From: Heliocidaris erythrogramma
Taxonomy: Eukaryota > Echinodermata > Echinoidea > Camarodonta > Echinometridae
NCBI GenBank assembly: GCA_025617745.1
Contig: CM046856.1
Location: 37,318,208 to 37,382,207 of the forward strand
DNA: 64,000 bases
Direction of reading: 5' to 3'
The notes below the pieces were generated by a model that made no database searches, had not been told where the DNA came from, and was given only the letters and a program-made list of their open reading frames with translations. Made by a program: the position numbers and the translations under genes. This document shows positions 428 through 64,000 of this stretch, piece by piece (within the stretch, counting starts at the first letter, position 1; each line of letters opens with the position of its first letter).

Positions 428-7378
<6,951 letters not shown>

Positions 7379-33371: not shown

Positions 33372-35144
33372 TTATTTGAAGAGTTTGAATTTCTTGAAGT
33401 ACTTCTGCACCTCCTCTTTGGGATATGGTTTGACAGCAAGACAAGTGGCATAGTCCTCAGGCTGTTCAATCCACAGTTTATGATCAATGTTATTCTCTTT
33501 CAGCTTCTCTGATAAAGTCCTCACATCTGCTTCACTCTTGGCCTGAAAACCCAAAGAAAGAAAGAAACAACTAAGTAAACAGCTTGCTTGAGGCTGGATA
33601 TAAGCATATATATATATATATATAAACATATAATTCTAACAAATGATTATTTAAAATTATGAATTTTGATTACAGCTCCAAATGTTTTCATGTTTCTGAT
33701 TGGGCTTAAGTTGAAAATTGAGAGAAATAGTTCCCTCAGACTATCTTTGTGATAACTCAATCAATTCAAGACAGATATTGCTCTTCCTTATCTCTTGTTA
33801 TTCTTCAAAAGAGGAACATCATAAGATTGACTTTATCATGGGTATTCTAATTCAACAAACTGTGCATTGACAAAGATCACAGAATCTGTGCAGAAACAAG
33901 TAGAATTCATGTCAATATTCTGCTTACCTCAAGAACAACCTTGTGCATGTTGTCCAGATCTGAAGTGTATTTAATTACATTCTCATCCTCCTTGAAAAAA
34001 TGTATCACAGCAGTACAAGCATGGCATGCCTTCATGTAAATAAGAGAGAGTGAGAGCGCAACAAAAAAGTGACCTTGGCCAATTATACCTTAATCAATTA
34101 CATGTGTCATGGTCAGAAAATTTACATTAACATTATAAATTCATAGTCCAATAAATATTTTAATGATATTACACTTAAATGCAACAAATTAATAACAAGA
34201 GAACAAGTAAACTGTAAATAGGATATTCAGATCCTTTCGTTTATTTGTTTAATATTTTTTTTTGGAGAAAAAAATAACCTGGAATTAATCTGTTAACATA
34301 GAGACATGGAGACCATGTACATGTATGTACCGTCTTTATAGGTATCAAATAATCAAATAGGCCTTGTCTCAAAATAACTTTTGTCAGCTTTTCTAAAAAC
34401 CTTTTGTCAGCACTGTAAATCTCGATCATGGAAAATATATGACTTTCTAGTTGTTTCTTTTGTGCAATGTTCCTGGCCAAGTCAGAAGTAAGGAAATTAT
34501 TCCACTTTAAGTTTTATATAACTAAATTGTCTTCCATCTGATTTTTTCCCCTTTTGTCTTGAGTTTTATACTCGAATACATGAAGGGCCTACAGTAAGTC
34601 AGTAGTACAGGTACAGCACACTGAATTTAATATGAAAATTGAAATCTTTTATTCTTCAGCCTTTCAGGGAAGTTCAGACTTCAATTTTTTAATTTTGGAT
34701 TACAAAATTATATTCATGATTTGACATAAATTAACAATGAATAATCACTGATAAAGTTATAGTACAAATAAAAAACAATTTAATTACAAATCAACTAAAG
34801 AAAGAAACAAACAGTCAAACAAAAACAGGAAAGTCACTGGCAATTGGCATGGCAACACTCTCCATGCATTCCGATCGACTAAAAAGTAAAATTATTAAAA
34901 AACGAGTCACACGATTTTAAGTATGTGGAACAACGTTAATGTTACTCTTTGTCACAAATTTTACATTCTTATTTTACAGATAGTCTCTTCAATAAATAAA
35001 GTTATCGGTCCAATTATAAAATTACTATATTACAATCACCTGCGCGATAACAGCACCTGTAGGCCATTTCAAAGCATGTAAAAGATCGCCCCTGACGACT
35101 ACGTATTGCACCATACTGTCGGCTAGCGACAGACGGGTTGCCAT
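33372..35144 (-). CDS. PTRHD1: Peptidyl-tRNA hydrolase domain-containing protein 1
   Basis: Small Pth2-fold protein related to peptidyl-tRNA hydrolase 2; its activity in animals is little characterised. Three minus-strand exons: 35040-35144, 33928-34029, 33372-33542 (stop TAA 33372-33374), all with GT/AG borders and phase 0, giving 125 residues. The reading VQYVVVRGDL, WPTGAVIAQ|ACHACTAV, KVVLE|AKSEADVRTL, then NIDHKLWIEQPEDYATCLAV and KPYPKEEVQKYFKKFKLFK aligns along the whole human protein. The start at 35142-35144 is chosen because it gives MATRLSLADSM, the same eleven residues before VQY as the human MAAS start. An inner ATG at 35112-35114 is the alternative. The first ten codons and the whole upstream promoter lie in the left arm of the long inverted repeat (35115-35757), so this start region exists twice in the window. 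Confidence 0.95.
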
Positions 35145-35757
35145 TCTCTGATTGGTCAGTTAAGACAGTGCGATGTACGTGTACTGTGCGCTGTGTGTGT
35201 GTACGTGAGCCGTGCGTGGTGTGTGCTACGGTACATGCTCTACATATATATGAGCATAGACTAGACCCCAGTCGTTTTATTCGTTTATATACTGACCACG
35301 GACCACGGAGTTATGTTCTGACCAGAACACGCATTCGGCTATGAAAGAGATGTATAATGTTTTTGTGAAGTTTCTTCAAACTCTTTGACTCTGCCAGTTT
35401 GTTGCTGTTTGTATAGAAAAGGCCTCTTTCTAATCATATGTTATCTCTTATGTTTTCTCTGTTTATTGGTTCTCCCATCATTTCTGTCTCTAGAAAAAAA
35501 TTCTCTCCCTTGCTCCCTCGATCTCTCTTGATCTCTCAATCTCTCTGCCTCTCTCAAAATCTCTCTCTCTCTCTCTCTTGATCTCTTGATCTCTCAATAT
35601 CCCCCTCTCTCTCTCTTGGTCTCTCAATCCCCGGTCTCAATCTCTCTCCATCTCACCATCTCTCGATTTTTCTATCTCTAATGATTTAGATGCCAATCAA
35701 TTAATAGACCCTATCTACTTGTATATAGTGAAAATGGCAACATGCCGGTCAATATAC
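35115..35757. repeat. Left arm of the long inverted repeat (PTRHD1 side)
   Basis: Matches 52711-53273 in reverse orientation with small indels. The outermost bases form a hairpin (CTGTCG, 5 bases, CGACAG). Then come, inward: a CCAAT box (TGATTGGTCAG at 35149), CA/GT-rich DNA, CTCTCC-rich DNA, the phrase ATAGACCCTATCTAC, and one unit of the 40-bp minisatellite. Left and right flanks give no obvious target duplication. Confidence 0.9.
35145..35260 (-). promoter_or_regulatory. Probable PTRHD1 promoter with CCAAT box
   Basis: Reading on the minus strand, CTGACCAATCAG lies just upstream of the first start codon. The same promoter is duplicated next to CENPO in the right arm. No TATA box at a usual distance. 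Confidence 0.5.
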
Positions 35758-36668
35758 CTATCCATCCAGGATTAAGAATAAATGAAAAATTAAAATATTG
35801 GAGTAAAAGTGTGATTGTAAACCGGCAAAACAATGGTTCCATATATATGCGACCCACGGTAAACATTTTAATTTTATGGCCCTCGCTATAGTTTCCTGTA
35901 GTATGATTATAATTACAACATGATTTATAAAATATCTGGAATGTTCAAAAATTATTCTGAAGATAAGTATGACTTATATATTCCTTATTGAAGTATTTTA
36001 TTTATGTATGTAAATTTAAGAAAAACTCTCAAGATTTATAATTCTAGGGCATATTTGAATATCAATAGAGAGACAGAATATGAGTGGCAAAAAAGAAGGG
36101 GAAATGGAAATTAAGGCAACATTTTACAACATTTATTTGTGATTTGTCTTTCGGAATGTTGCTGTATAATGTTACTCTTGCTGCACTTTTCATGTTTATT
36201 TTTAATGAATGATTGTTTTGTAATTCCTGGGGTTTTCTGGCATACTCGTGATACAGGCCCCGCTAGTTTGCAAGTGTAATCGATCATACCTTTGTATTAG
36301 GGTTCTAACTTCAGCCAGCTCACTAGTTATACTCGTGATCCAGGCCCCGCTGCATGTCCTACAGTGCCCAAATGGGGCCTGTTTCACGACCATACTAGTT
36401 ATAATCGTTATCGACGCCCCGCGCTACGGAATTTCAAGCCACAGAACACAGCAGCGGGGCCTCGATATTGAGGACTGTTGTTCCATATCTACTCGTGAAA
36501 ATGCCTGGGGGGGGGGGGGGGGGGTGGGATTCAACTACATTGTAAATTGCTGTACAATAAAACAAAAGTAGGGAACGCAGTGAGCATTTCAAATCTAACC
36601 AAGGGTGTGACATTTTAAAGGACACTATGTACTGGTGGTGCCGGGGGGGGCGCGTTGAAATGTACATG

Positions 36669-36993
36669 CAGGGGCGGATCCAGGATTGAGTAAAAGAGGG
36701 GGCACAAAAATGAAAGTTTGTTAAATGGGTGTCCCGTATTTTTTTGGTCTCGGCAGCTTCTCGAAAAGTTGTTCAGTGGGGGAGTGGGGGGGGGGGGGGG
36801 GGGGGGGTTGCGACAAAATTTCTTTTTTTCGCCAAACCTTTAAAATTCGCTCAGTAGGGGGTTATGGGGGTCCAGTTGCCCTCCATAATTCCCTGACAAG
36901 CAACAAAAAAAAAAAAAAAAAAAAAAGGTCTTCATTCCAAAAAAAAGGGGGGGGGGGGAGGCACGGGCCAGAAGTGCCCCCCTGGGTCCGCCA
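36669..36993. mobile_element. Second copy of the hAT-like poly-G MITE
   Basis: Ends CAGGGGCGGATCCAG and CTGGGTCCGCCAATG. Collinear with the 13336-13697 copy, including the central G run and the CACGGGCCAGAAG phrase. Confidence 0.7.
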
Positions 36994-37589
36994 ATGTGTA
37001 CATGTATTCATATATTATTGATTTATTTATTTGTGGTCGTACCCCCCACCAAAAAAAAAAAAAAGAACAAAAAAAGAAATCCCAATTTTTCTTTCTTAAA
37101 TCATTGTATTTTTTCAGCATTGTCATTACAATGAGTTTCCTTGAGTGTATTCTACCTTTCATTTTTATTGTTATTTTGCTCAACCCCTCTTTTGTTCCTG
37201 AGGGCACCCCCACCTTTTTTTTTTGGCTTTGCTTTTCAGTTGGACCCCCTTTTAATTTAATTTTTATCTGTCACTTCAGCGCTATACCCCCCCCCCCAAA
37301 AAAAAAAAAAAACAAGTTTAAATATTGGGGGAAAGTATCCCCTTATATATCGTAACCCCGCCCTTGCAATCCCCCCCCCCAAAAAAAAGAGGAAATTATT
37401 TTATTGTGTAGTTAAGGCATGCCACTTGGATTGCAATAACCCCTCCCTTGCAATCCCCCAACACCCCCCCCAAAAAAAAAAGGAAATTTTTTTTTGTGTA
37501 GTTAAGGCATGCCACTTGGATTTTAAGGGGGCACGGCCGCTTTAGCCCCTGCATCCGCCCATGCCTTTATCCCCTCCCTTGCAATTACC

Positions 37590-38130
37590 CCCCCCCCCCT
37601 TGCCATTACCCCCTCAAAAATGTACATTGAGGGAGTCCCCCATTAAAAAAATTGTTTAGATATTGGGGGAAAGTATCCCCTTATATCCCTTTAACCCCTC
37701 CCTTGCAATTACCCCCTCCGCCCCCAATGAATTAAGGAGGCAATTTGTTTTATTGTGTACTTAAACTCCCTTGCAATTACCCACCCCCCCCCCCCTTGAA
37801 AATATACATTGGGGGAGTCCCCCATTAAAAAAATTGTTTAGATATTGGGGGAAAGTATCCCCTTATATCCCTTTAACCCCTCCCTTGCAATTCCCCCCTC
37901 CGCCCCCAATGAATTAAGGAGGCAATTTGTTTTATTGCGTACTTAAACTCCCTTGCAATTACCCCCCCCCCCCTTGAAAATATACATTGGGGGAGTCCCC
38001 CATTTAAAAAATTGTTTAGATATTGGGGGAAAGTATCCCTTTATATCCCTTTAACCCTTCCCTTGCAATTCCCCCTCCGCCCCCAATAAATTAAGGAGGC
38101 AATTTGTTTTATTGTGTACTTAAGGGTTTC
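37590..38130. repeat. ~185-bp tandem repeat, three units
   Basis: Units contain TTGGGGGAGTCCCCCATT, TTGTTTAGATATTGGGGGAAA, TATCCCTTTAACCC, and AATTAAGGAGGCAATTTG. More decayed related DNA starts near 37300. Flanking CGGATCCGCCC phrases at 37550 and 38166 suggest the array sits in another poly-G-type MITE. Confidence 0.75.
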
Positions 38131-38626
38131 AAAGGGGGGGGGGGGGAGGGGCCGCGGCCGATTCGGATCCGCCCTGCCTTTATCCCCTCCCTTGCAACTA
38201 TGCCCTTATATGTAATCTTGAAGCCCCACTACCGTGTTGTCTGTCTTCATTTTGCATAGGATGGGGCCTTGTTCACGAGTTTATAATGTTAATCGTGATA
38301 CAGGCCCCATTTCCGTTTTGTAAGCTGTTCAACGTGGTTGCGCGGGGCCTGTAACACGAGTATAACTAGTGAGTTGGCTGAAGTTAGACGTCTAAGAAGA
38401 TGATTAGTAATCGATTACAAGACGGGTAAGTTGCGGGGCCTATATCACGATATTGCCGGTTTTTTTCAATAAAAACGGGGGGGGGGGTTAATAAAATAAT
38501 TACAACATAATATTTTCTTTGCCATGTTCATACCATGCATACCGATACTGAATGTTGTATAATGCAGTGCTGAGTGTGCTGAGTTCATCCGGCCTAGCTG
38601 GGAGTTCATCAAGTTCAGTCACTTTA

Positions 38627-38768
38627 CTGGGAAGCGTTTCATCAAGTGTTCTGTCAGTGATTTTTACCGACAAATTCGCTCTCAGCCAATCAGATGCAAG
38701 GATTTCAGTAGCTTATAACAGTTGTCGGTAAAAATCACTGACAAAACGCTTGATGAAATGCTCCCCAG
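38627..38768. mobile_element. 142-bp foldback MITE
   Basis: CTGGGAAGCGTTTCATCAAG pairs with CTTGATGAAATGCTCCCCAG, and pairing continues through GTCAGTGATTTTTACCGACA. Arms are about 48 bp. Confidence 0.8.
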
Positions 38769-39454
38769 GTCTCGGGGCGGCCGGGGCGGCCGGGGCCGGT
38801 CAGGTGACGATGCCGGCTTTGATCTTGGCTTGTTCACTTTATTAGCGGCCTGCAGTAAGATGCCGGCGAGAGGCAGAGTCATTCGTATTTACATTGGTCG
38901 GGATGCCAAAGCAAAGGGATGCTTTGTGCCGGGGCTTTGTGTTGCGTAAGAACAAAGATGTAGCGAACGTGGTGTACCGTAGACGCCGAATCCACCTGGT
39001 AATGAGTACGTTAATCACCCGATAATCTCTTTTCTTTTGAAGCACTTAATGGAGCTTATTCAGCTTCAGGCAGGAAGGCTACGGCCCCGCCCCCAGCGCG
39101 GCGGATCAAAGACTCAACTATGGACTCAAGATCATTATCGTATTGCATATAAAGATGGCCATCCTACTGCTAGCTGTATAGTTTCGCTTAAATTTGCCAT
39201 TGCTAACTTAGTGCCGTCGCTCCGCGAGTAACTGCAGTCGCGATTTGGTATAGCGTTGCGCAGCTTTTGCCTTAAAGTTTAAATTTGGACGCTTGTCGTT
39301 ATCATTCAACTCATTCATGTGATATTTTTATTTTAACTTCACTGCTTATCGCGATTGGACCTTGGGCCTCAACATTTAATAGACGAGTGTGAAACTGAAA
39401 GGATTGATTTTAATTAGGATTCAGACTGCTAATTATTTTTGTTTTTTATTTTAG

Positions 39455-42400
39455 GTCATATTTGGATGACTTTGGTTGGATCCCAGACGTCATCATGCAA
39501 CAAGCTAGTGCTGCAGGAGAAGCTAGTAGTGCTGCAGGAGGAGCTAGGTAAGACAGCTTGTAATAATTAAATCTTGACCAGATCTCGATCATCTTATTTC
39601 AAGCTCATTTTATTTTCAATCTGATTTTATTTTCAATCTGATTTAAGCGTAAACAGTAAACCCATAGACCTGTCGAACATTGTCGTAACGAGTGCAAACT
39701 TTTTTTTAAAAAGCCAAAGTTCAACCCCCCACTAAACTCTAAAAAAGAAAGTAAAATAGATTGGCTGCTGCCATCGGAATGGTGTAGTGCTGTAGTGTAA
39801 TGTGTGACTGATTGAAAATACTTTACAAGATGGTTTTATTAAATATTAGTTTGTTTATTAGCTTGATTATTTCGGTCATCTCGTACAATAATTTAATATA
39901 TTGTTTTGAAAATTTGAACCTGAGTGACAATGATGGCTGATGCTTAGCTACTAGTAGTATTACATGTACATGTGTGTACAGTAGGTGAGTGGAATGATTT
40001 CAAGCATACAATTTTTAATAAAGGGCTGTGCATAGTGTTGGTACTGGTAGGGTCAACAAATCAATTGCGTTCACTTTTTGTTACTATACTACGTTTGGGG
40101 TACACAATAATCAATATAACCTCCAAACCATTCGGATTTAAATTTTGTTGTATTATCAAGATATTAATTTCTTATCATATTTTATCAGGCCCCTGATAAA
40201 AATTCTGACCCTACCTCCAAATCACAAAAATTTTCATCGGCCGATCTCCATGAAATTTTCAGAGTATTTTCCTTTGACACCCCTTTAAGTTATAATCTTT
40301 CCCCTAAATAATTGTATGTTTATGTTTAACAATTAAAACATAATTAGGAATACTAGAAAATGGAAATGCCTTGTGTTAAAAGTCATATCACATCAACCTA
40401 ATCATTGTTCAATAGCAACAATTTTTCAATTACATTAGAATTCAAGTATAGATACAAAGTTCAAACTATTTAATTATAGTGGCAATTTTGAATATCTAGA
40501 TGCCAACAGATCAAAAGGATGTGAAATTGAAAATAATGATTAATGAGAATGTAGACCTCCTTAACATGCTTTTCTTCCAAAATTTAAGCATTCTACATGC
40601 TTTGAAACCCAGGATATCAAACTATACAACTATTTTTTTCTGTTTAGTTTTATTTTTGTATTTTATTTATTTATTTTTTATGTTGACCAACATATGTACC
40701 GGAGCAAGTTTTGTGAAAATGGCATGGCATTTAACCTTGGGGACATCATTAAACGAAGATAATACAACGGGTGCTTTAATGAATATTCATTTGACATATT
40801 ATTCTAGTCTTCTGGTATAAGAGATGATTTTCTTCTTTGAGGTTGACTACTATTTCTGATTATGCATGTGGAAATTTAAAAAGACAATCCAAAAACAAAA
40901 TACATATAATGCAATCTTCTCTGTTTTTCTTTTTTGCAGGTCTGAATTTAGTTGTCAACATTGTGAGAGCGTGTACCGCAATAGATCAAGCCTTTTCAAG
41001 CATCGTCGCAGTAAGCATCCTCATGCAGCTGGAGCTGGTGCAGTGCGATGCTTGGAGGCTGGATGTAACTTCTCTTCACACTCCCGAAAGAGCCTTCGTT
41101 GCCACCTTGCATCTACCCATCACATTCCCATGGAGGAGGTTGAACTGTCCTTTGACTCGAGAGAAGGTAAACTGTTTAACAAAAACATATTTTTCTTTTA
41201 TGTTAATTTGGGGGGGGGGCAACTAATAAAATGGCTGCTTGTTATTTGCATTAGTGCTCATATCTGGCACATTGTGATATTGGGAGCTCGTGTTTGCAGT
41301 GTGATCCTTTGTGTATGTATTTGACGTTGCTCATGCAATTTGTAAGAGATAAGACCTTTGAGAGGCTTGTAAAACTACAAAAGGGGAAAAAATCAAGACG
41401 CATCAACGACATTGACAGCAGGCATCGGTTAAGTCTTAAACTCAATTGTGCTGCTGTGAAAGAGGTATGCGCGAACAAGTGGGAAGTTAGTTCTTCGGAT
41501 AGAAAGCATGTTTACATAGTTGAAAGAAATGATGTGGCCTGTGCTGTTACTTGTCCTCTTGTATGCAAGGAGTGCCAAGTATGTGTACATGAATTTTCTT
41601 GTACCTGTATAGATGGAGTTGTTAGGGGAACACTATGTAAACATGTACACCTAGTATCGAGGGTAGTTGGGAAAAGGCAGGATGGGGTAGTAGGAAATGC
41701 AGCACAACCAGCAGTGCGGCCTCCTGCAGAAGACAAAATAATGCAAGAGTTATCCTCAGGAAACAAGAATTTGACTGCCAAAACCAAAACACATGTCAAG
41801 TCAAAAATGCAAGAACTGCAAACACTGCTGAGTGAAGTTCAAGATGATGTGCAGTTAGATGCTGTTTATAAGAATTTAGAGGCAGCAGTGCAATTAGTGA
41901 AAGTTTGCAAGCCAGATCAAGTTCAGTGCTTTCAGGGGAATGCCTCTAGTGTACCTCAAAGGGTGACACCACAGAGAAATAAATTCAAATCTACTAAAAA
42001 GGCTAGGAAGACTCGCCAACCACTTGAAAAGCCAACTACAGAAGAAAGGGATAGCATTGTGCGGAATTTGGGAGAAGTTGAGGTTGTTGTGCATCAAGGA
42101 AATGATCATGATTATGTTACCTCACAAGTTTCATCAACTGCAAATGAAAGTTTGAATAGAACTGATGTAGAATATTTGGAACTGTTTGTAAATGACAAAG
42201 TAATAAAGGCGGTGAAGCGCGGTATTAAGATAAAGGAATGCGAAATTGAAGTACTGCCTGAAAATGTTCCGGATAGTGTGATAGATATTGCTTCAGACCA
42301 ACTACACAATTTGCAGCAATATTTTGAGGATGATGCTTGGTTAATTATTCTTGATGTCGTTGCGAGAAAACATAGGGAATGGAAATGTATTTTATGTACA

Positions 42401-42526
42401 ACAACGAACACTTCTCTCAACATGATCGAATGTGAATTATGTAAACGCTGGTTTCATTGGAAATGCTGCAATATTAAGAAAAATCCAAAGCAAATGTGGT
42501 GTTGCAATTTTTGCACAAAGATATGA
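39455..42526 (+). CDS. C2H2-SWIM-PHD zinc-finger protein, MULE transposase-derived
   Basis: Three exons are supported: 39455-39547, 40940-41166, 41349-42526 (stop TGA), with GT/AG borders and matching phases. The last acceptor (41347-41348) is chosen because it alone keeps frame. From the ATG at 39495 the protein has 485 residues; upstream exons are possible. Domains: two C2H2 fingers (C23, C26, H39, H44 and C55, C60, H73, H78); a SWIM finger (C178, C180, C190, H192) in the context CVHEFSCTCIDG...GTLCKHVHLV; a Lys/Gln-rich linker; and a C-terminal PHD finger (C440, C443, C455, C458, H463, C466, C479, C482, with W477). The segment KTFERLVKLQKGKKSRR before SWIM resembles the end of MULE-type transposases, which usually carry a DDE domain between C2H2 and SWIM. 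That domain is absent here. It is the only sizeable gene inside the inverted-repeat-bounded insertion. Function unknown; it may be DNA- or chromatin-binding. Confidence 0.75.
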
Positions 42527-42649
42527 CCTCTTTCACAGCACACATGTTTTATTTTCCATTTTTTATCTCTTTATTTATATATTATTTTTATTTTTTGGTG
42601 TTCAGTAGAATAGTGTTCAGTAGAATAGATGTAGTTAAGTTGTAGAATA

Positions 42650-43300
42650 GTTTCCTGCTTGATGGTTGTAGGAGGAAACTGTAAGTCTCCATCAGTCCTT
42701 TACCCCAGTCCCATTTTACTGAGGCAAGGTGTTGCGATTGCAAGCAGCCTCTCCCCTTTTTGACTTGATTGGAGCAGGGAGTACACTGACCATCAACGCA
42801 TTGACCATACAACCGGATTGGACACTATTTCTCAGTTGGTGTGTGAAACTAGGTTTTAACTTACTCATAACTAGTAGTAACCCCAACTAAGTATTTGCAT
42901 GCGTGGGAAATCGTAAGTCTCTAAGTGTTCCTAACTTGAAATGAGGCAAAATATTGCCATTGAGGGTAAAGCCTCATTCTTAGTGAATATCTTACAGCAG
43001 AGAGTACCCACAACTTCAACTTCTTCATGAGGAAAATCGTAAGACTCCATCAGTCTTTCTACTTTACAATGAGGTAAGATATTGTTATAGTGAGTATAGG
43101 GCTCATTCAAACAAGTAATTGACTTGAGCAGAAAGTGCCCGCAACTTAAATAATTTTACCTGATTGGTGTGGGAAACTATAATGCTCTAACAGCCCTTCT
43201 TCCCCTCTAACGAGACAGCTTCCCCAAATTAGTCTCATTCCTCTATTGGGGCTTAATAAGAGAAGAGTACCCCAACTAGGTACCTGCTACCTTGGGATAT
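42650..43300. repeat. Degenerate ~130-bp tandem repeats after the zinc-finger gene
   Basis: Loose copies of GGAAAATCGTAAGTCTCCATCAG, here given in parts: TCGTAAGTCTC at 42911, TCGTAAGACTCC at 43035, and ACTATAATGCTC at 43174. Each is followed by TGAGGCAAGAT-like and AGAGTACCC-like phrases. Old and diverged. Confidence 0.55.
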
Positions 43301-43359
43301 TTGTGGTAGTAATGTTTACTCTCACTCAATCTCCATTATTTGGTTATCTCTCTGTCAAA

Positions 43360-43500
43360 TACCAAGGCAAGGTGGTGCCATAGGTGACAGCCGCTTGTCA
43401 AACAGGGAACTGATAGGAGATCGCAATGATGTGATATTGGGGATATTTGTGGTAGTAATGTTTACCATCACTCATAATCTCCATTGGTTACATGTACATG
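43360..43500. repeat. First copy of a ~140-bp direct repeat
   Basis: ATACCAAGGCAAGG, GGTGACAGCC, AACTGATAGGAGATC, and GATATTTGTGGTAGTAATG recur in the same order at 48037-48175. The two copies flank the MITE at 43515-48032, which inserted at the junction. Confidence 0.8.
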
Positions 43501-43925
43501 TATCTCTCTGTTAAAGGGGAAGTCCAGCCTAAAAATAACTTGCTTTTAAGAGAAGCAGAAAAATCAGACAAACATATCAAAATAGTTTGAGAAAAATCGG
43601 ACAACTAGTAAGAAAGTTATGAATATATCAAGATATGAAGAACTGGGAAGACCAGTTGTCAAATTGGCAACTTGATTATGAATATGTGACGTCATGGATA
43701 CACTAATAGCCATTAAGTATTTGTTAATATGAATACTACAAATTTTCATTTTTGGTCAAAAAATATGATTTCCACAAAACTTAAACCAAGATATATGTAT
43801 AGTAAACATATTTTTTATACGGACCTAATATTTTTCTTTAAAAATGTGGAAGAATATGAATTTCTAACAAAATATTCACAAGAATATAATAATGAAACTA
43901 GAATTTAATTCGTCATGAGGACGAA

Positions 43926-45755
43926 TTAGGTGGTCTGTCTTTCAATTTGTACGATCATGATTGTAATCAGGATGATCATAATAATGGGGAAATACTAAAC
44001 TGAAAGGATGTCAAGAATGCAATGAATGGAGATGCTTCTTGAGGAGAGGAATGTAGCAAAATGTGTAACGGTCATTGTAAAATGATTATGGTGATGATGA
44101 TAATGGTGACTATGATGATTATAGTGATAATTTCAGATAATTGACTAAGCCAATTTTCAGAAATTGTGATATCAAACAGGACTATTTGATATTGCAGGAT
44201 ACTTGGGAGATAAACCCCGTAGCTCTAATACACGATAGGGAATCAAAATTTCCATAGGGTTGTACACAAACTACTGCACACTACTTTCTAATAGACATAA
44301 CATGCAAAATAAGGCATTTTATTACATGGTTTGTGATTCTTTATGTTATAATAGTCGAAGAGGATGGTAAAATGACAAGCAAAAAGAAGCAAAAAAAAAA
44401 AAAAAATCGGCCCCGGGGATCGAACCAGGTACCTTGACCATGGTAGTCATGTGCTTTACCGATAGACCAGAATATTTCCCATAGAGATAACACGTAAACG
44501 AAAACGGGATTCTCAAATCACATTTTGTACTGAAAAATTGGGCATGATCCCGACATCTGATCAAAAATTGGAGACCACACTTGTAAAAGCTTATAGTCTC
44601 AGCTACAACATATTAAAATCTGGAAGGAAATAGACCAAAAATAACTGAGATACTGCTCAGAGAACGATGTCATGTAGATTCATGATTCGAAAAAAAATCA
44701 TCTTCCATAGACATAACACGCAAATAGGGAAAAATCTGACATGTCGTCTTTAATTGAAGATTTCAGTGTGATGACGTCATCAAAATGAAAAATGGTGGTG
44801 ACTGATCTTGTAGAGAATTGTCTCAGCTATAACATATCAAAATTTGGAAGAAAATTGATCACCTATTACTGAAATATTAGCAAATGAATACAAAAATGAT
44901 GACGTCATTTTTTCAAAATCATTTTTTTGAGTTCGTATGCAAATATGATGACGTTAGAACATGCGATCGGCAAAATTTCTGCATGAATTCCAATCTACAA
45001 CTCACAGGCTTTCATAATATGTACAGAAATTGGGGGGTTTCCTCGCGTTCTGACGAGCTATGGCGGATTCTAGATAGGCATGTTTTTACCACTTTTTACA
45101 TTAGAATGCCCATTGACGTGCGCACGAATTTGAAAGTTTGACGCGCGCGTACGACATTATGGAAGGTCGAGATTGACTGTAAATAGTTGGAAATTGTCAA
45201 GAATAGTGTCAGGAAGACAAAATATGCGAACAACGGCGTTTTTACGTTCTCTACGCGCTGTGTGCGCGCATAATGCGCGCACGGACGCGCACGGACAGAA
45301 AAATTCAAAATGCTTAAAATGTCCTGGACAATACTCTAATTTGATTAAAAAGTGATTTTAAGCATTTCTAAATTTTGACGCGCGCGTACGTGCGCGTCAT
45401 GATGCGCGCGCGGATTTTGATGACATTTTATGTTGACCCTTGACCTGAAGTTCATGTGTGTCAATTATGGTTCATTTTGGATGACTCGTTATGAAGATAT
45501 GATTGATAATGTGATTTCACAAAATGGCGCCTGGATGACGTCACGATGACCTGATGACCTTGATAATTATAGGGGCACTTGATCTGCTATGGCCTGATAA
45601 TTGACGAAAATCTGAAGAAAATTGATCGAGTTGATTTTGAGAATTCACGGTCACAAGAAATAAGTTGAAAATAAAGAATAAATAATAATAATAATAAATC
45701 AAGAAAATTCTGACGAAATTAAGAGGTGATCTGTCGATACCGACAGACCACCTAA
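43926..45755. mobile_element. 1.83-kb element with 14-bp perfect inverted ends
   Basis: TTAGGTGGTCTGTC at 43926-43939 is inverted at 45742-45755. The right end is a hairpin (AGGTGATCTGTCG, ATAC, CGACAGACCACCT). Inside are repeated ATGACGTCAT and CATAGACATAACACGCAAAT phrases, a run of GCGCGCG-type blocks at 45110-45420, and a tRNA-like segment. No protein is recognised. Confidence 0.65.
44405..44480 (-). repeat. tRNA-like segment (SINE head or tRNA pseudogene)
   Basis: On the minus strand an A-box-like TCTATCGGTAAAGCAC (44451-44466) is followed 25 bases later by a perfect B box GGTTCGATCC (44417-44426), then CCCGGGGC and a T-run. The spacing fits a tRNA, but the anticodon arm is poor, so this is a tRNA-derived repeat and not a working tRNA gene. 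Confidence 0.6.
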
Positions 45756-46097
45756 ATATGAAATATTGTATAACTCAAGATATCTATTTCATGAAATATT
45801 TTGTGAAGGTGTATTCAAGTAAAACTAGAAATGTGCATTGCTGGGGCCGCGCAATGCTAAATGTATCCCCCGGCCCTGGCAGCGATTTGAAGGAGGGACA
45901 AAGACCCTCCCCCATCCCCTCCCTCAAACAAAAGGATGGTGTAGAAATTAGATGTGTAGGTTTCACTAAGACACATCTTCATATAAAATTTGAAAGAAAT
46001 GTGTTGAGAGATATACCAAGATACATCTCCATACAAAATTTGAAAGAAATCCATCAAGAAATGTGGCCTGCAGAGTGCACTCACGCCATGCCCTGAA

Positions 46098-47650
46098 GTA
46101 TGACCTTTGACCCTATAAAAGACGGAACACTGGTGGCAGCATCACCAAAAACTATAGGTTTTTAGATTACACCAAGAGACACCTTCATGCAAAATTTGAA
46201 CGAAATCCGTCAAGAAATGCAGAAGTAAGAGTGCAAGAAATGGAAAAATGACCTTTGACCCTATAAAGGACGGAACAATGAGGGCAGCATCACCAAAAAT
46301 TAAATATGTGTAGATTATACCAAGATACATCTCCATACAAAATTTGAATGAAATCCGTCAAGAAATGCAGAAGTAAGATTGCACAAAAGGGACAAATGAG
46401 CTTTGACCCTATAAAGGACGGAACAATGAGGGCAGCATCACCAAAAATTAAATATGTGTAGATTATACCAAGATACATCTCCATACAAAATTTGAATGAA
46501 ATCCGTCAAGAAATGCAGAAGTAAGATTGCACAAAAGGGACAAATGAGCTTTGAACCTATAAAGGACGGAACAATGAGGGCAGCATCACCAACCAGTAAA
46601 GATGTGTAGATTATACCAAGATACATCTCCATACAAAATTTGAAAGAAATCCATCAAGAAATGTGGCCTGCAGAGTGAAATCACGCCATCCCTTGAAGTA
46701 TGACCTTTGACCCTATAAAAGACGGGACACTGGTGGCAGCATCACCAAAAAGTACAGATTTTTAGATTACACCAAGGGACACCTTCATGCAAAATTTGAA
46801 CGAAATCCGTTGAGAAATGTGACCGCCAGAGCGCACACAAGAGTACACACAAGACATCTATCAAAATATGACCTTTGACCCTATAAAAGACGGAACACTG
46901 GGGGCAGCATCACCAAAATCTATAGGGTTCCAGATTTTACCAAGATTACATTTTACATCTCCATACAAAATTTGAATGAAATCCGTCAAGAAATGCAGAA
47001 GTAAGAGTGCAAGAAATGGAAAAATGACCTTTGACCCTATAAAGGACGGAACAATGAGGGCAGCATCACCAAAAATTAAACATGGGTAGATTATACCAAG
47101 ATACATCTCCATACAAAATTTGAACAAAATCCGTTGAGAAATGTGGCCTGCAGAGTGCACTCACGCCATGCCCTGAAGTATGACCTTTGACCCTATAAAA
47201 GACGGAACACTGGTGGCAGCATCACCAAACACTATAGGTTTTTAAATTACACCAAGAGACACCTTCATGCAAAATTTGAACGAAATCCGTTGAGAAATGT
47301 GACCGCCAGAGCGCACACAAGAGTACACACAAGACATCTATCAAAATATGACCTTTGACCCTATAAAAGACGGAACACTGGGGGCAGCATCACCAAAATC
47401 TATAGGGTTCCAGATTTTACCAAGAGACACCTCCATACAAAATTTGAACAAAATCCGTTGAGAAATGTGACCGCTAGAGCGCACACAAACTATCCAAAAA
47501 AATATGGCCTTTTACCCTATAAAAGACGGAACACTGGGGGCAGCATCACCAGAAACTATAGGGGTCCAGATTTTACCAAGATACACATCCACAGGAAGTT
47601 TGAAAAAAATTCGTCGAGAAATGCGACCGCTAGAGCGCACACAAGAATGT
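46098..47650. repeat. ~148-bp tandem array in the Helentron-like element
   Basis: About ten units. Each has TGACCTTTGACCCTATAAAAGACGG (given here in two parts: TGACCTTTGACCC and TATAAAAGACGG), GGCAGCATCACCAAAA, CAAGATACATCTCCAT, and AATTTGAACGAAATCCGT. Start points step by 147-157 bases (for example 46102, 46249, 46397, 46545). Confidence 0.9.
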
Positions 47651-47653
47651 GAC

Positions 47654-47683
<30 letters not shown>
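47654..47683. repeat. (CGG)n microsatellite
   Basis: About ten CGG/GCG triplets between the last tandem unit and the terminal hairpin. Confidence 0.95.
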
Positions 47684-47684
<1 letters not shown>

Positions 47685-48308
47685 AACGCTGCTGAATCCA
47701 AAGTATCCTCCGGCATACTGCCGGGGGATACAAATATATAACTAAAGATATAACTTGCTTCAAGTTCTGAGGAAATAATATTACTGTAAATGAAATTGTG
47801 TAGTAATAGTATAAACACAATAAATGGTTGAGTGTACCCATGACGTCACAACCTCATAATCAAGTTGGCAATTTGTCTAATGATTTTCATTGTTTTCCCC
47901 TGTTCTTCATGTTATTAAATATTCATAACTTTCTTATTAGTTGTCCGATTTTCCTCAAACTTTTTTTGATCTGTTTGTCTGATTTTTCCTGCTTCTGTTG
48001 AAAGCCAGTTAATTTATGGCTGGACTTCCCCTTTAAATACCAAGACAAGGTTCTGTGATAGGTGACAGCCCCTTGTCAAACAAGGAACTGATAGGAGATC
48101 ACAATGATGTGATATTGGGGATATTTGTGGTAGTAATGTTTACCATCACTCAGAATCTCCATTGGTTATCTCTCTAATCTTGTGCTAATTTATTGTATGT
48201 AAAAAGCACATTACATTTTCATCACGCTTTGTAAGGATCAATATTCCAACACGACCTTTATTAATATTTTTTCTGGTATATCTCAATAGTTCCATAAGCA
48301 TACCCACG

Positions 48309-48402
48309 GGCGTAGACACGCATAATAATCCATTGTTAGTGGGGGGATGATCTATTCATCATCCCCCCCACTAACAATAGAAAGCGTGTTCGTGTCTACG
48401 CC
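48309..48402. repeat. Compact foldback element
   Basis: GGCGTAGACACG and CGTGTCTACGCC ends with inner arms ATTGTTAGTGGGGGGATGAT and ATCATCCCCCCCACTAACAAT around a short loop. Almost the whole 94 bp forms one stem. Confidence 0.85.
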
Positions 48403-49383
48403 GCTGAGCATACCTGTTTCCATGGATTTAGTATAAAGAAAACAACAGTAAAAGTTAGGGATTTTGGCCTATTCACATTTATTTATTTCAGCAAAAAAAT
48501 TTTTACGGCTATCCTTTGTCCTTACTCTGAGTTTACATTGTCATATTGTAAACTGATGAAGATGGAGAATCACCATTTTTAGTGAAATAAATAAAAGTTA
48601 TAGGCCAACATGGATTAACTGGTCATGTTTTCTTATTTTGTTGGAGCCAATGATATTGTTAATTGAATTATGATTTTTTTTTTCACTATTCTTTTATATG
48701 TAGGTGCAGTCTTACATTCAACATGCAACATATCACAGTTACACAAGTGCCCCATGGCTTCGATACAATGGACATGTGGCATACTAAGAAGAAATGGTTA
48801 GCAAGATGTCAGTAGTTACCATTTCCAAAGTAAGCAGGAATGTTTTTCAAAAGCTGTTCATACACGCATAAATGACTTTTCACATTAACTTCTGATAAAA
48901 TGTGCAAAGCTCTATTATTAAGACGGTTAACATTTATACTGGCCCATGAATGCAATAGAAACATTTCTTTGTATTCTGATTAATAATACTGAAAATGGGG
49001 TCAGATTATCAGAACTTATAGAGAATACCATTGGCTAACATGTTGGCCTTTAAATATTCCAGTCATTGGAGTATTGCATAATATTATGAACAGCTTTATG
49101 AAAACACGTATGTTATAGCTGTAGCATTGTGACAATTTTGTATTTATAATACTAATGTGCATGTAGTTCATATGGATTGACTTAACTATTATGAACAGAT
49201 CTTGTCAATAAATTGAAAAGTTCAGTAACTCAATACATTGACTTTGATCAGAGTATTTTGTCTGTCTTTTTCTCTGTGTAGAAAGAGAGTGTGAGAGAGA
49301 GAGAGAGAGAAAGAGCAGGAATACTAAATGCGAGAGAAGAAACAACAATTTTATCCATAAAGAAATTTAAGAAAATCTTGTGT

Positions 49384-49922
49384 AAAAGGATGGTTTCTGT
49401 CAAGTCCACCCCAAAATAAAATTGATTTTAATAAATAGAGGCAAATTTTAAGCATAATGCTGAAAATGTCATCAGAATCGGATGCAAAAAACAAGTTCCA
49501 ACATTTTAAAATTCTGCTTATCCCGGTATTTTCACAAGTTATGTGCAAAACAAGGGTGATATGCAAATGAGAGAGGCAATGATGTCACACACTCATATTG
49601 ATGTCTTACATTATTACTTGTGTATTTTATTATATGAATTATAGAAAATTGAATCACGATTCAAAAATGGCACTTCCACTCGTTCAGGGAGGACTCAAAC
49701 CTTGTTTCACATTCATATTTTATTTAATGAAATACACTTTACAAAATGTCATCAGTTCCCTCATTTTCATACCGACCAGGATGTGCATGTTTTGTGAAAT
49801 TAAGTAAAACTTCAGAATGTCATTTTTATATTTTCCAGTCGATTTTGATAAAAGTTTCATTGTTATGCTTGTTTGATTTTTCTGTATTCATATCAGCTTT
49901 TCTGTTGGTTTGGACTTGTCCT
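49384..49922. mobile_element. Another TTAA-target MITE copy
   Basis: The right end GGTTTGGACTTGTCCT is followed by TTAA at 49923-49926. The left end AAAGGATGGTTTCTGTCAAGT is more decayed. Inner phrases (ATGCAAATGAGAGAGGCAATGATGTCA) show the same arrangement as the other copies. Confidence 0.55.
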
Positions 49923-50065
49923 TTAATAAGTGTTAATGTTGTTGGATTGGTGGTAAGAGAGAGATTTAGAATCGGTTAAAAAGGGCGAATAATTTAAATT
50001 TTCTACATACAAAGAAATATAATCACAAATCCATGATACACTCTTCATGCCAACTTTTATTTATT

Positions 50066-52752
50066 AAGGTAGAATTGACCAGCATGTTGCCATTTTCAGT
50101 ACATACAGGTAGAATTGACCGGCATGTTGCCATTTTCAGTATATACAGGTAGAATTGACCGGCATGTTGCCATTATCAGTATATACAGGTAGATAGGTAT
50201 ACTGACCGGCATGTTGCCATTTTCAGTACATACAGGTAGAATTGACCGGCATGTTGCCATTTTCAGTATATACAGGTATACTGACCGGCATGTTGCCATT
50301 TTCAGTATATACAGGTAGAATTGACCGGCATGTTGCCATTATCAGTATATACAGGTAGAATTGACCGGCATGTTGCCATTATCAGTATATACAGGTAGAA
50401 TTGCCCGGCATGTTGCCATTTTCAGTATATACAGGTAGAATTGACCGGCATGTTGCCATTATCAGTATATACAGGTAGATAGGTATACTGACCGGCATGT
50501 TGCCATTTTCAGTACATACAGGTAGAATTGACCGGCATGTTGCCATTTTCAGTATATACAGGTATACTGACCGGCATGTTGCCATTTTCAGTATATACAG
50601 GTAGAATTGACCGGCCTGTTGCCATTTTCAGTATATACAGGTAGATACATGTAGGTGTACTGACCGGCATGTTGCCATTTTCAGTATATACAGGTAGAAT
50701 TGACCGGCATGTTGCCATTATCAGTATATACAGGTAGAAATGACCGGCATGTTGCCATTATCAGTATATACAGGTAGAATTGACCGGCATGTTGCCATTT
50801 TCAGTATATACAGGTAGAATTGACCGGCATGTTGCCATTATCAGTATATACAGGTAGAATTGCCCGGCATGTTGCCATTTTCAGTATATACAGGTAGAAT
50901 TGACCGGCATGTTGCCATTATCAGTATATACAGGTAGATAGGTATACTGACCGGCATGTTGCCATTTTCAGTACATACAGGTAGAATTGACCGGCATGTT
51001 GCCATTTTCAGTATATACAGGTATACTGACCGGCATGTTGCCATTTTCAGTATATACAGGTAGAATTGACCGGCATGTTGCCATTTTCAGTATATACAGG
51101 TAGATACATGTCGGTGTACTGACCGGCATGTTGCCATTTTCAGTATATACAGGTAGACTTGACCGGCATGTTGCCATTATCAGTATATACAGGTAGAATT
51201 GACCGGCATGTTGCCATTATCAGTATATACAGGTAGAATTGACCGGCATGTTGCCATTTTCAGTATATACAGGTAGATAGGTGTACTGACCGGCATGTTG
51301 CCATTTTCAGTACATACAGGTAGACTTGACCGGCATGTTGCCATTTTCAGTATATACAGGTAGAATTGACCGGCATGTTGCCATTATCAGTATATACAGG
51401 TAGAATTGACCGGCATGTTGCCATTTTCAGTATATACAGGTAGATAGGTGTACTGACCGGCATGTTGCCATTTTCAGTACATACAGGTAGAATTGACCGG
51501 CATGTTGCCATTTTCAGTATATACAGGTAGAATTGACCGGCATGTTGCCATTATCAGTATATACAGGTAGAATTGACCGGCATGTTGCCATTATCAGTAT
51601 ATACAGGTAGAATTGACCGGCATGTTGCCATTTTCAGTATATACAGGTAGATAGGTGTACTGACCGGCATGTTGCCATTTTCAGTACATACAGGTAGACT
51701 TGACCGGCATGTTGCCATTTTCAGTATATACAGGTAGAATTGACCGGCATGTTGCCATTATCAGTATATACAGGTAGAATTGACCGGCATGTTGCCATTT
51801 TCAGTATATACAGGTAGATAGGTGTACTGACCGGCATGTTGCCATTTTCAGTACATACAGGTAGAATTGACCGGCATGTTGCCATTTTCAGTATATACAG
51901 GTAGAATTGACCGGCATGTTGCCATTATCAGTATATACAGGTAGAAATGACCGGCATGTTGCCATTATCAGTATATACAGGTAGAATTGACCGGCATGTT
52001 GCCATTTTCAGTATATACAGGTAGAATTGACCGGCATGTTGCCATTTTCAGTATATACAGGTAGATAGGTGTACTGACCGGCATGTTGCCATTTTCAGTA
52101 CATACAGGTAGACTTGACCGGCATGTTGCCATTATCAGTATATACAGGTAGAATTGACCGGCATGTTGCCATTTTCAGTATATACAGGTAGAATTGACCG
52201 GCATGTTGCCATTTTCAGTATATACAGGTATACTGACCGGCATGTTGCCATTTTCAGTATATACAGGTAGAATTGACCGGCATGTTGCCATTATCAGTAT
52301 ATACAGGTAGAATTGACCGGCATGTTGCCATTATCAGTATATACAGGTAGAATTGCCCGGCATGTTGCCATTTTCAGTATATACAGGTAGAATTGACCGG
52401 CATGTTGCCATTTTCAGTATATACAGGTAGTGTATATTGACCGGCATGTTGCCATTTTCAGGTAGATATTGACCCGCATGTTGCCATTTTCACTATATAC
52501 AGGTAGACTTGACCGGCATGTTGCCATTATCAGTATATACAGGTAGATAGGTATACTGACCGGCATGTTGCCATTTTCAGTATATACAGGTAGAATTGAC
52601 CGGCATGTTGCCATTTTCAGTATATACAGGTAGTGTATATTGACCGGCATGTTGCCATTTTCAGGTAGATATTGACCGGCATGTTGCCATTTTCACTGTA
52701 TACAGGTAGAATTGACCGGCATGTTGCCATTTTCACTATATACAGGTAGATA
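50066..52752. repeat. 40-bp minisatellite, about 65 units
   Basis: The unit is GTAGAATTGACCGGCATGTT followed by GCCATTTTCAGTATATACAG. Variants have GTAGATAGGTATACTGACC or GTATACTGACC at the start, and TTTTCACTATATACA at the outer (right) end. A higher-order pattern repeats: the same block appears at about 50096, 50382 and 50841, the last two 459 bp apart. The array is continuous with the right arm of the long inverted repeat; the left arm has a single unit. Confidence 0.97.
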
Positions 52753-53273
52753 GGGTCTATTAATAGATAGAAAAATCGAAAGATGGTGAGATGGAGAGAG
52801 ATTGAGGGATCAAGAGATCAAGAGAGAGCGAGAGAGAGCAAGGGAGAAAATATTCTAGAGACAGAAATGAAGAGTAATTTAGATCTGAGATTTTGATGGG
52901 AGAACCAATAAACAGAGATAACATATGATTAGAAAGAGGCTTTTCTATACATACAGCAACAAACTGGCAGAGACAGAGTTTGAAGAAACTTCACAAAAAC
53001 AACATTATACAACATCTCTTTCATAGCCGGATGCGTGTTCTGGTCAGAACAAAACTCCGTGGTCAGTATAAACAAATAAAACGACTGGGAGTCTAGTCTA
53101 TGCTCACATATACGTCTCAATGAATGCACAGCGTGCAGAGCATGTACGTAAATATATCATAGCACACACCTCGCACGGCTCACGTACACACACACAGCGC
53201 ACAGTACACGTACATCGCACTGTCTTAACTGACCAATCAGAGAATGGCAACCCGTCTGTCGCTAGCCGACAGT
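52711..53273. repeat. Right arm of the long inverted repeat (CENPO side)
   Basis: Reverse-complement copy of 35115-35757. It keeps the CCAAT box, the first ten PTRHD1 codons (53244-53273), the CTCTC-rich block, and the ATAGACCCTATCTA phrase. It ends outward at CCGACAGT, exactly where similarity to the left arm stops. Confidence 0.9.
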
Positions 53274-53357
53274 GTGCTTACCATGGAGGCTGCCATTTTG
53301 AATTATATTAAGCTTGGTCAAGTATATGTTTTTAATTATATATTATTATACAGATAA
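53244..53357 (+). CDS. Chimeric short reading frame started by the copied PTRHD1 start
   Basis: The duplicated first ten PTRHD1 codons (MATRLSLADS) run on in frame into local DNA (VLTMEAAILNY...) for 37 residues, then TAA at 53355-53357. It points toward CENPO and has a CCAAT box just upstream, so it could be transcribed. No homology is seen in its second half; it is more likely an untranslated or regulatory upstream frame than a real protein. Confidence 0.25.
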   Translation: MATRLSLADSVLTMEAAILNYIKLGQVYVFNYILLYR

Positions 53358-53612: not shown

Positions 53613-55638
53613 ATGGAAGTTTTAACAGAAAGATTGTCCAGAGGTGAGTATACTTTACTGTACTTTAAATTCGACATTCGTAAGTACATTATAAGTTAGA
53701 ACAGGAACGTAGATCTGTGTATGTTGAAACTTGAAATGAATGCTGGACGTGAGGACAGCGGAGCTCCGCTGGCTAGCTGGCCGCCGTCGCCGCCCCCGGC
53801 CTGGGCCGGCGGAGCTCCGTGGAATTCGTGCTAGTGACCGATGACGCATGACGTTGATGCGGTACTGATTGAGTGAAGTGCATGCTTGACTGTGACTGAT
53901 ATATCATGATACTGTTGATTCGGCATTATTGAGAAATAAGAAACCACCATACATGCCATACATGATATGACCATTCACTCCACGTACAGACATGGCACTA
54001 TAAAATATAAAAAATAATTATAAAATGGCGGTGTGTGCGACGGCGCGCGATACAACCATAATTGAAACTATACGTCGCCGACAGCGCGCGCCGTCGCACG
54101 CAGCCGCCATTTTATATCTGCATGACAAGAGGAGGCATGGATACACAAACACTAGTGAGTTCTCAGAAATTTCTTATGATCTTTTTTTGGATTTTTTTGT
54201 AAAAATACGTACGATCAAAAAGACATTCTAATTCCAAACGTTTCCCTAGGAGGAAACGCTGTGGGGAATGGCCTGTCGGTCGCGGGAGTTATCAGAAAAG
54301 TGTTATTTCAGGGCATTTTCATGTCCTGCTAACCCGTGCGCAATTAGATTGCTGGGGATAAACGCCTGGCTTCGTGATGTAAAAGGCGTATAGCCAATTT
54401 TTTTTTTTTTTTACACTCACGAAGCTAATCCTGGCTACCCCACCCACTCACCATCCTACTCCTAGGTCAAGTCTTTGCACACATGTGTGTGCGTGCAAAC
54501 AAATGAGTGGTTTCCTTTGAGCATGCTAAGTTACGTTTATAGCCGTTATTTCACTGTTTGCAATTGGCGTTTGGAATTTTGGCTGACTTGGCTGGTGTTG
54601 GAAAGTGATCATGGTCATGATCATATATGAATCAACATGATTGATGGTGAGCTTGATTGTGCAACAAAAAAAGAAGATATAATAGAAGGAAGAAGAACAA
54701 GAAAAAGAAGAAAGGAAGGAAGAAAGAAAGTACGGAAGGAATTAGTGGGAGGTGGAAGAGGAGCTAGGAGAGAAAGAAAAAGAAAGAAGGAAGAGTAGGA
54801 GATGGAGGAGGAAACGAGAAGAAGGAGGATGAGAGTATAAAAGAAAATGAAGAGTGAATGAACATAATGACGGCTGACAAAAGTCATGACTGATGATTAC
54901 ATTGCAATCAGCCTCTTGTACAGAGGAAATCCTCCAATGTATAATATGTAGAATAAACAAACAGTAATAGATCTCCATGTAGTGTAACGTTAAATATGGA
55001 TTCATGCTCCATGAGGAACAAAGCAGAAATTGTTCTGGGACCACTTACGATTTAATACAAATCAACAAAAAAAATTAACGGAAAGAACTTTTCTAGGTTC
55101 ATAAAATGTGAAGTTGACTAATTAATGCCATCCAGAAAGGGTTAAACTATTACTATTACCTGAATTTGGCCCTTTTATTGCATGGATACAGGAACTTTGC
55201 AGCATCTCCAGAAGTTGGAGCAGCAAGCCCAGGACTTGAAACATGGCTCCAAGACCAGGGCCAAGCAAGAGAGGATGCTGAGGGCCCTTCAGAAGGCTGT
55301 ACACCAGCTCCAAGAGAGGAGGGACCTTCTCAAGATCCAGATTGCAAATTCGCCAAACAAGGTTCATTAATGTCTCTTTATGTCAGCTGGTATTAAAAAT
55401 GAGCATAAGAAATTTAGTTCAGGTTTAATTGGGCAGAGCACCAAGTATTGACCTCTTCATTCCAATAAAAGGTACCAGAATTTAATAAAAAATGATGTCA
55501 TGAAATGAATTTCCTTTTGCCATTCCATTACTAAATTAATCTATTGAAAAATGTATATAGCACTACCAGTGCTGATATGATTAGTTATGACTTCAATGAG
55601 TAAATCGATCTCTTTCACCTCTCTCTCTCTTCTATTGG

Positions 55639-62238: not shown

Positions 62239-63169
62239 TATCTAGCAAAAGACGACATCTAATGGGGCACTCTGATTCTCTGAAATTTTTGGAATTGGAA
62301 AGGACTACGTACCGGTAATACAATAATACTGAATGATCTTCATGTTATGTCTCTTTGCAACGGGCAACATGAAATACCTCAATTAAGAAGGTACTTTGTA
62401 TATATCATAAGACAAAGTCTCTGTCCCATGAATGCAAAATTGACAAAAACTAATCATGTATATGAAGGCGAATGACATGCCTAAAGCATTCATTTTGTTT
62501 ACTCTCATTTGCACGTGAGGATGGCATGATTAGTGAAAATAAAAACCCCTCAAACCCTTGTTGAAGAATGCAATGGTCCTCAACTTATACAGGGTGGTAT
62601 GGGATAATGGCACCATGTGAAAGAGACAACAAAATGCCCAGTTCATCAGTGAAAATAAGTATACAGTTTAGTGGCACAATCGTTTTAAGTAGGCTTCACT
62701 GATATTTCCTGACAAAAACAGCAATCTATATATAGGAGGGTGGGAAATTGCATAAGGCATATCCGCTTTTGAACAGAAAAAGATTTGGTATCCTTTCCCT
62801 TGGTTCATGAAGTTCTATAATTGGAAGCACTGGTCACATGCACTGAATGAGATGTTATTCAATGGCAGCTAGGAAGTAAACATGTAAAGACAAGATTGAG
62901 TTGGGAAAAGTGAAAAATAATTTTGTGAGCTATCTCATTTCTATTATGTCAATTTGGAAGAACATCATAGTAGAAATGTCTCCTGAAAAGGAATCCTCTT
63001 CAAATGCCCTCGTATTCAAAATATGTGGAGACAAGATGAATGAAACTGCGTCTCTTATATGCCTCCACTTAAATTCAGTTGATGGCTCAAACTGTTCTTG
63101 AAATATTGTGATAACCAGAATAAAAAGCCTCTAATTACATGTTAACTGACCTCTTTGACATTTGACCTT

Positions 63170-64000
63170 ACACCTTATAACCCCAAAGTCTGATCACTTT
63201 ATCTCCTAGTCATGACTACAAAATAGTTGAGATAAGGTGATAACAAAGGCAAAAAACCATTAATTTCACATACACCTGTATAATGACCTCTATGACCCGT
63301 CACCTTTGACCTACGTGAACAAAAATCTAATTAGTTCGTCTCACTATGGTGATGCATACTACTTCCAAGTTTGAAGTTAATGGATCAAATGGTTCTTGAG
63401 GTATCACGTTAACAAATCAAACCTGCAATTTCAGAATTGACCTTTATGACCTTTGACATACGTATCCCAAAATCTAATCAGATCGTCTTTCTATGTTGAT
63501 ACATACTAGTACCAAGTTTGAAGTTCATACCTCAATGGTTCTTGAGTTATCGCGAGAACGAGGCTAACAGCTGAAATGTCAGAAATTGGCCTCTGTGACC
63601 TGTGACCTTTGTCCTATGTCCTCCAAAATCTAATCAGATCGTCTTCCTATGGTGATACATACTAGCACCAAGTTTGAAGTTCATACCTCACATGGTTCTT
63701 GAGTTATCACGAGAACGAGGCTAACACCTGCAATTTCAGAAATTGACCTCTGTGACATTTGACCTACGTACCCCAAAATCTAATCAGATCGTCTTTCTAT
63801 GGTGATACATACTAGCACCAAGTTTGAAGTTCATACCTCACATGGTTCTTGAGTTATCGCGAGAACGAGGCTAACACCTGCAATTTCAGAAATTGACCTC
63901 TGTGACATTTGACATACGTATCCCAAAATCTAATCAGATCGTCTTTCTATGTTGATACATACTAGTACCAAGTTTGAAGTTCATACCTCAATGGTTCTTG
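63170..64000. repeat. ~150-bp tandem repeat running off the right edge
   Basis: Units contain TGACCTTTGACCTACGTA-like, AAAATCTAATCAGATCGTCT, CTAGCACCAAGTTTGAAGTT, and GGTTCTTGAGTTATCGCGAG. AATCTAATCA recurs at 63471, 63627, 63777 and 63927 (steps 156, 150, 150). Reverse orientation of the pair of units at 5085-5420. Confidence 0.92.

Follow-up and report, generated by a model that had tools for sequence, protein, structure and literature searches.

What occupies the 18.2 kb between PTRHD1 and CENPO in the sea urchin Heliocidaris erythrogramma, a Mutator-like transposon or host promoter DNA duplicated in inverted orientation? The window, the whole stretch of 64,000 nucleotides analyzed here, covers positions 37,318,208–37,382,207 of contig CM046856.1 (GCA_025617745.1). 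The insert has long inverted arms, a gene with C2H2, SWIM-type and PHD motifs in that order, a satellite array whose unit is common to the arm, and nested elements, and it lies beside PTRHD1. It is most probably a DNA transposon of the MULE superfamily with Rehavkus-like architecture, inserted in the first coding exon of PTRHD1 (probability about 0.8). Feature coordinates are reported in Table 1.

Table 1. Features of the insert and its flanks (window coordinates)
Feature	Position	Strand	Details
PTRHD1 exon 1 remainder	35040–35114	−	MVQYVVVRGDLLHALKWPTGAVIAQ; abuts left arm
Left (5′) terminal inverted repeat	35115–35757	+	Self-BLAST, realignment
Palindromic tip of left arm	35116–35132		17 bp
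Inverted CCAAT box, left arm	35151–35155		Read by eye
TATATAT, left arm	35245–35251		Read by eye
Nested element N1	36243–38455		Inverted arms 36246–36469 and 38214–38450, 69%; 182-bp tandem array
Element gene exon 1	38860–38945	+	ATG, donor GTAAGA; prediction only
Element gene exon 2	39455–39547	+	Prediction only
Element gene exon 3, predicted	40940–41166	+	Two C2H2-type fingers; donor AAG/GTAAAC, phase 1
Element gene last exon	41300–42526	+	SWIM-type motif, C-terminal PHD finger; open frame from 41255
Nested element N2	43515–48032		~300-bp inverted arms, 77.5%; own 156/480-bp tandem array
Minisatellite	50067–52750	+	64 unit-core copies counted; overlaps inner end of right arm
Right (3′) terminal inverted repeat	52711–53273	−	Self-BLAST, realignment
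Probable original PTRHD1 start	53274–53296	−	ATG GCA GCC TCC ATG GTA AGC AC
Probable CENPO first coding exon	53613–53643	+	MEVLTERLSR

Inverted arms and insertion site

The two arms named in the original prediction are real. Self-BLAST of the window aligned 35112–35753 with 53276–52711 in inverted orientation (E = 1.7e-124; 681 columns, 154 of them gaps, with 72.5% identity when gaps are counted). When the arms were realigned alone, 481 columns matched and 44 mismatched, with 156 gap columns spread over 13 gap events. Most mismatches (29 of 44) fall within columns 400–499 counted from the outer end, apparently a GA-rich stretch in which the alignment is doubtful. Identity runs 101 bp inward from CTGTCG and 1 bp outward, and the 102 outermost bases are thus identical. 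The expected terminal hairpin is present in the arm tip, a 17-base palindrome (CTGTCG-gctag-CGACAG). Counting the one matching base beyond this palindrome, the element spans 35115–53273 (18,159 bp) and has the long terminal inverted repeats of a MULE (0.56–0.64 kb). The CCAAT box and TATATAT of the left arm form a possible inward promoter.

The flanking genes were correctly named as PTRHD1 and CENPO, which we take to be divergent neighbors in human too. Pfam matches support both: PTH2 in PTRHD1 exon 3 (E = 2.1e-11), with a match below cut-off in the exon 1 piece (E = 0.0054), and CENP-O at 56445–56948 (E = 3.4e-12), downstream of the probable first coding exon of CENPO. A sequence search of the PDB with the joined PTRHD1 product gave no match at E 0.001. 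Contrary to the original prediction, the arm holds no PTRHD1 coding sequence beyond its tip; identity stops at 35115 and, on the minus strand, ATG GTG CAA TAC of exon 1 follows immediately after the left arm. The right flank reads AAA ATG GCA GCC TCC ATG GTA AGC AC up to the arm (MAASMVS), and human PTRHD1 presumably has MAAS at the corresponding place. The probable CENPO start codon is 317 bp from the MAAS ATG. Because the MAAS start and CENPO share the far flank, the insertion probably falls within exon 1 of PTRHD1, and CENPO probably retained the old bidirectional promoter. The insertion seems to separate PTRHD1 by 18 kb from the promoter it formerly shared. Among the papers retrieved for PTRHD1 with CENPO, no title or abstract opening concerned their promoter.

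No exact target duplication of 8–11 bp is present at the element flanks, as had been noted before, and hence none of the 9-bp type described for Rehavkus. This is a real weakness of the Mutator reading. The candidate duplications ATGGTAAGCAC and ATGGTGCAATA have only their first five bases (ATGGT) in common when ungapped; with a 2-base gap they also share GCA, giving an imperfect ATGGT(aa)GCA echo. Random host pairs aligned as well with gaps in 625 of 20,000 cases and shared a 5-mer in 1,467 of 20,000, and as a target duplication the echo is suggestive at most. When the flanks were joined with 0–12 bases removed, removal of 2, 5, 8 or 11 restored an open PTRHD1 frame; excision with an 11-base duplication gives MAASMVQYVVVR. 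Decay of a perfect duplication is unlikely because the arm tips are identical. Arm-to-arm gene conversion or a damaged flank could possibly account for the missing clean duplication.

Element gene, minisatellite and nested elements

The original prediction that the arms enclose a zinc-finger/SWIM-type/PHD gene, a minisatellite and nested elements was borne out, with the SWIM motif recognized by eye. Predicted exons 1–3 join in frame to encode 135 residues with two C2H2-type fingers, the first of which has a sub-threshold Pfam match (E = 0.0069; 17.2 bits, cut-off 25.2). The PHD finger in the last exon matches PF00628 (E = 3.9e-5) at 24 bits, exactly its cut-off, and PDB PHD chains (best E = 0.00029). 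The element's protein, a putative transposase, thus carries the finger type that helps to set Rehavkus apart. The SWIM-type motif (CxC-x9-CxH) in the same exon has no Pfam match to SWIM and is one of four such patterns in window open stretches of at least 60 aa. Six-frame Pfam scans of 35115–50066, in which stops were read as X (E limit 0.1 in one scan and 1 in the others), returned PHD and no further family; neither a DDE nor a MULE family was among the matches. NCBIfam gave one weak, unrelated match, and for the last exon single-sequence AlphaFold modeling gave no usable structure (mean pLDDT 35.7).

Exon 3 ends in a phase-1 donor, whereas the acceptor GTTTGCAG at 41299 is in phase 0, so the two do not fit. 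None of the 69 in-frame donor/acceptor pairs listed joins these two sites, and the other pairs are weaker by eye. In such proteins the DDE domain sits between the N-terminal finger and SWIM, and it is at this position, between the C2H2 finger and SWIM, that exons seem to be missing. Because the DDE domain was not found and the best C2H2 and SWIM-PHD splice sites are out of phase, the copy is probably non-autonomous. Reading by eye also showed a short inverted repeat at 38640–38770, around TTGTCGGTAAAAATCACTGACA, which resembles a small palindromic insertion and lies immediately 5′ of the gene.

The minisatellite has a 40-bp unit within a 167-bp higher unit. It is present as predicted but is not independent of the arm, whose inner end constitutes the repeat unit. 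We counted 64 copies of the unit core on the right against a single one at the left arm's inner end, and the array therefore seems to have grown on one side only, out of the inner end of the right arm. By overlapping that end, it also provides the minisatellite before the 3′ TIR that is described for Rehavkus. The motif GTTGCCATTYTCWG, common to arm tip and minisatellite and picked only after being noticed, has 44 exact matches in the window, of which 42 lie in the array and each arm holds one. Shuffled arm tips rarely reached the same score (156 of 5,000 gapped and 9 of 1,000 ungapped comparisons), but other window stretches often did (863 of 4,597 gapped and 55 of 1,170 ungapped). That the GTTGCCATTYTCWG copies in the array are amplified transposase binding sites is a suggestion only. 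With an array at one arm and a single unit at the other, the element is a useful case of transposon ends possibly seeding satellites.

Nested element N2 has an exact TTAA on each side (43511–48036 including these sites) and, by target site only, we take it to be Kolobok/piggyBac-like. Its termini are AGGGGAAGTCC, it also holds a GCG run, and a 134-bp direct repeat flanks it (43357–43490 and 48035–48168, 93%). The outer bounds of nested element N1 are approximate and its length was taken as 2,213 bp. Besides its diverged arms and tandem array, N1 contains repeated TCGTGAT-CAGGCCCCGC-like motifs. Subtraction of N1, N2 with one TTAA (4,522 bp) and the array outside the arm (2,644 bp) leaves a core of 8,780 of the 18,159 bp. 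Nested elements and satellite array thus make up ~9.4 of the 18.2 kb, about half, and calling the insert a giant element is misleading. Giant size as a family trait was rejected, given a core of ~8.8 kb.

Other repeats are present in the window. A MITE-like repeat of ~300 bp occurs at 19009–19312 and 54137–54440 (89% alike), with inverted partial copies at 17924–18097 and 18842–18999. Related 150/171-bp tandem repeats lie in inverted orientation near both window ends (5081–5452 and 63031–64000).

Identity of the element

What sets Rehavkus apart from MULEs is a PHD finger together with a minisatellite preceding the 3′ TIR, and both main-text mentions of PHD in that source concern Rehavkus (PMC6446971). 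The same source describes 9-bp duplications, TIRs of 26–400 bp, and arthropod and annelid hosts for Rehavkus, lists SWIM and C2H2 fingers for other MULE groups, and gives insertion in or near genes as typical of MULEs. In the account of a 2019 survey, very few Rehavkus elements have been identified, in Repbase only and from insect and annelid hosts. Rehavkus-1_TC is described as 9.5 kb long, its inverted termini containing a satellite with a 164-bp unit. Arthropod MULEs are given as 1.9–10 kb with TIRs of 13–1,193 bp (PMC13359780). Muta1, an active mosquito MULE, is described as ending in a palindromic motif with subterminal tandem repeats behind it (PMC5225508), and descriptions of Mutator-type foldback elements include tandem repeats inside the arms (PMC3169594, PMC4079207). 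Judged by its sequence, the window element has these published structural features except the target duplication. It is filed here by structure as MULE-type and as a candidate Rehavkus-like member.

Scans of viral and prokaryote collections, in which animal sequences are scarce, turned up no relative. The palindromic 17-mer had two matches in viral contigs, taken as chance because the likeness ends at the 17-mer. None of eight pattern stretches was confirmed as a protein relative in viral contigs, the SWIM-spacing pattern had no match in viral or prokaryote collections, and the 28-base arm tip had none in prokaryote collections.

The original prediction left the Mutator-like reading and an inverted promoter duplication side by side. 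The Mutator reading gains support because the architecture matches MULE/Rehavkus and arm identity ends at the palindromic tip. For the arms to be host promoter DNA, the region upstream of PTRHD1 would have undergone an inverted duplication through rearrangement, with capture of the sequence now lying between them. The missing clean target duplication, the CCAAT box seen by eye in the arm, and an arm tip whose open frame continues into PTRHD1 and supplies an ATG are consistent with such an event, and no further arm copy is known. Nevertheless, arm identity ends one base past the tip without entering either host gene, the minisatellite unit at both inner arm ends and the zinc-finger gene between the arms are transposon-like, and the other flank already has a plausible PTRHD1 start (MAAS) facing CENPO. 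Promoter duplication is therefore improbable. An origin from Polinton/Maverick, Zisupton or a further kind of large DNA transposon would suit the ~18-kb length and long arms, but about half of that length is nested elements and satellite, and the six-frame Pfam scans of 35115–50066 gave PHD and no other family. This origin is highly improbable.

A closer competitor is a MULE outside Rehavkus, for example a Phantom-like element, in which a minisatellite follows the transposase gene and a PHD finger was acquired independently. Phantom is listed with TIRs of 18–613 bp, with no finger, FLYWCH or SWIM, and in aphids with a minisatellite after the ORF, and SWIM is absent from the Rehavkus row of the same source (PMC6446971); against this stand its two main-text PHD mentions, which are confined to Rehavkus. 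With no DDE match in the Pfam scans, the window copy may belong to either MULE branch. A non-Rehavkus MULE is a substantial possibility, somewhat short of an even chance, and it overlaps the preferred reading, which commits to MULE-type and to Rehavkus only by architecture.

Proposed history and comparison with known elements

Transposition is the origin that we infer for the insert. In an intact family member, the left-arm promoter would transcribe one gene, and in the encoded protein the zinc fingers would bind the arms and the DDE domain would cut, giving cut-and-paste movement. The window copy would have lost the DDE exons and kept the C2H2, SWIM-type and PHD parts, and would be mobile only with enzyme supplied from elsewhere. 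The minisatellite would have grown out of the inner end of the right arm, and the element would have received insertions of two unrelated elements, of which one has TTAA target sites. These additions may have arisen before or after arrival at PTRHD1, and together they about double the length.

The PTRHD1 frame stays open when followed back into the left arm tip, where an ATG (35144–35142) would give MATRLSLADS-MVQYVVV(R). A candidate splice worked out by hand, from ATG/GTAAGC to an AG in the arm, gives in-frame MAASM-RMATRLSLADS-MVQYVVV. Other PTRHD1 exons appear open. PTRHD1 today may start in the arm, be spliced across the element, or be dead. A takeover of its 5′ end by the element, whether through arm promoter and start codon or through MAASM spliced over 18 kb, is rather unlikely. 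If a takeover did occur, a single insertion uncoupled the old divergent PTRHD1–CENPO pair with neither gene lost. An element at the PTRHD1 start makes survival of a gene after loss of a shared promoter testable.

As published, Tetris, a foldback element of Drosophila virilis placed in the Mutator superfamily by its authors, likewise has tandem arrays expanded inside a TIR and no transposase found. It differs in its ~220-bp units, lack of protein-coding capacity and 8–10 bp duplications. Muta1 and the Phantom group of Aedes aegypti resemble the window element in the palindromic terminal motif followed by subterminal tandem repeats, and are described with many non-autonomous derivatives, as the window copy probably is. 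Muta1 differs in length (3,198 bp), 145-bp TIRs, 12-bp repeats and 8–9 bp duplications.

Going by descriptions, Rehavkus and the window element have in common the PHD finger, the minisatellite before the 3′ TIR and long TIRs. The window element differs in arms of ~0.6 kb against the listed 26–400 bp, in no DDE domain or clean 9-bp duplication having been detected, and in C2H2 and SWIM-type motifs that are absent from the Rehavkus listing. Rehavkus-1_TC (9.5 kb, 164-bp unit) is close to the ~8.8-kb core and 167-bp higher unit of the window element, but its termini carry arrays of mostly 5 and 8 units, whereas in the window element only one arm has a long array. Rehavkus-type elements have been little characterized, and the window copy unites PHD, SWIM-type and C2H2 motifs.
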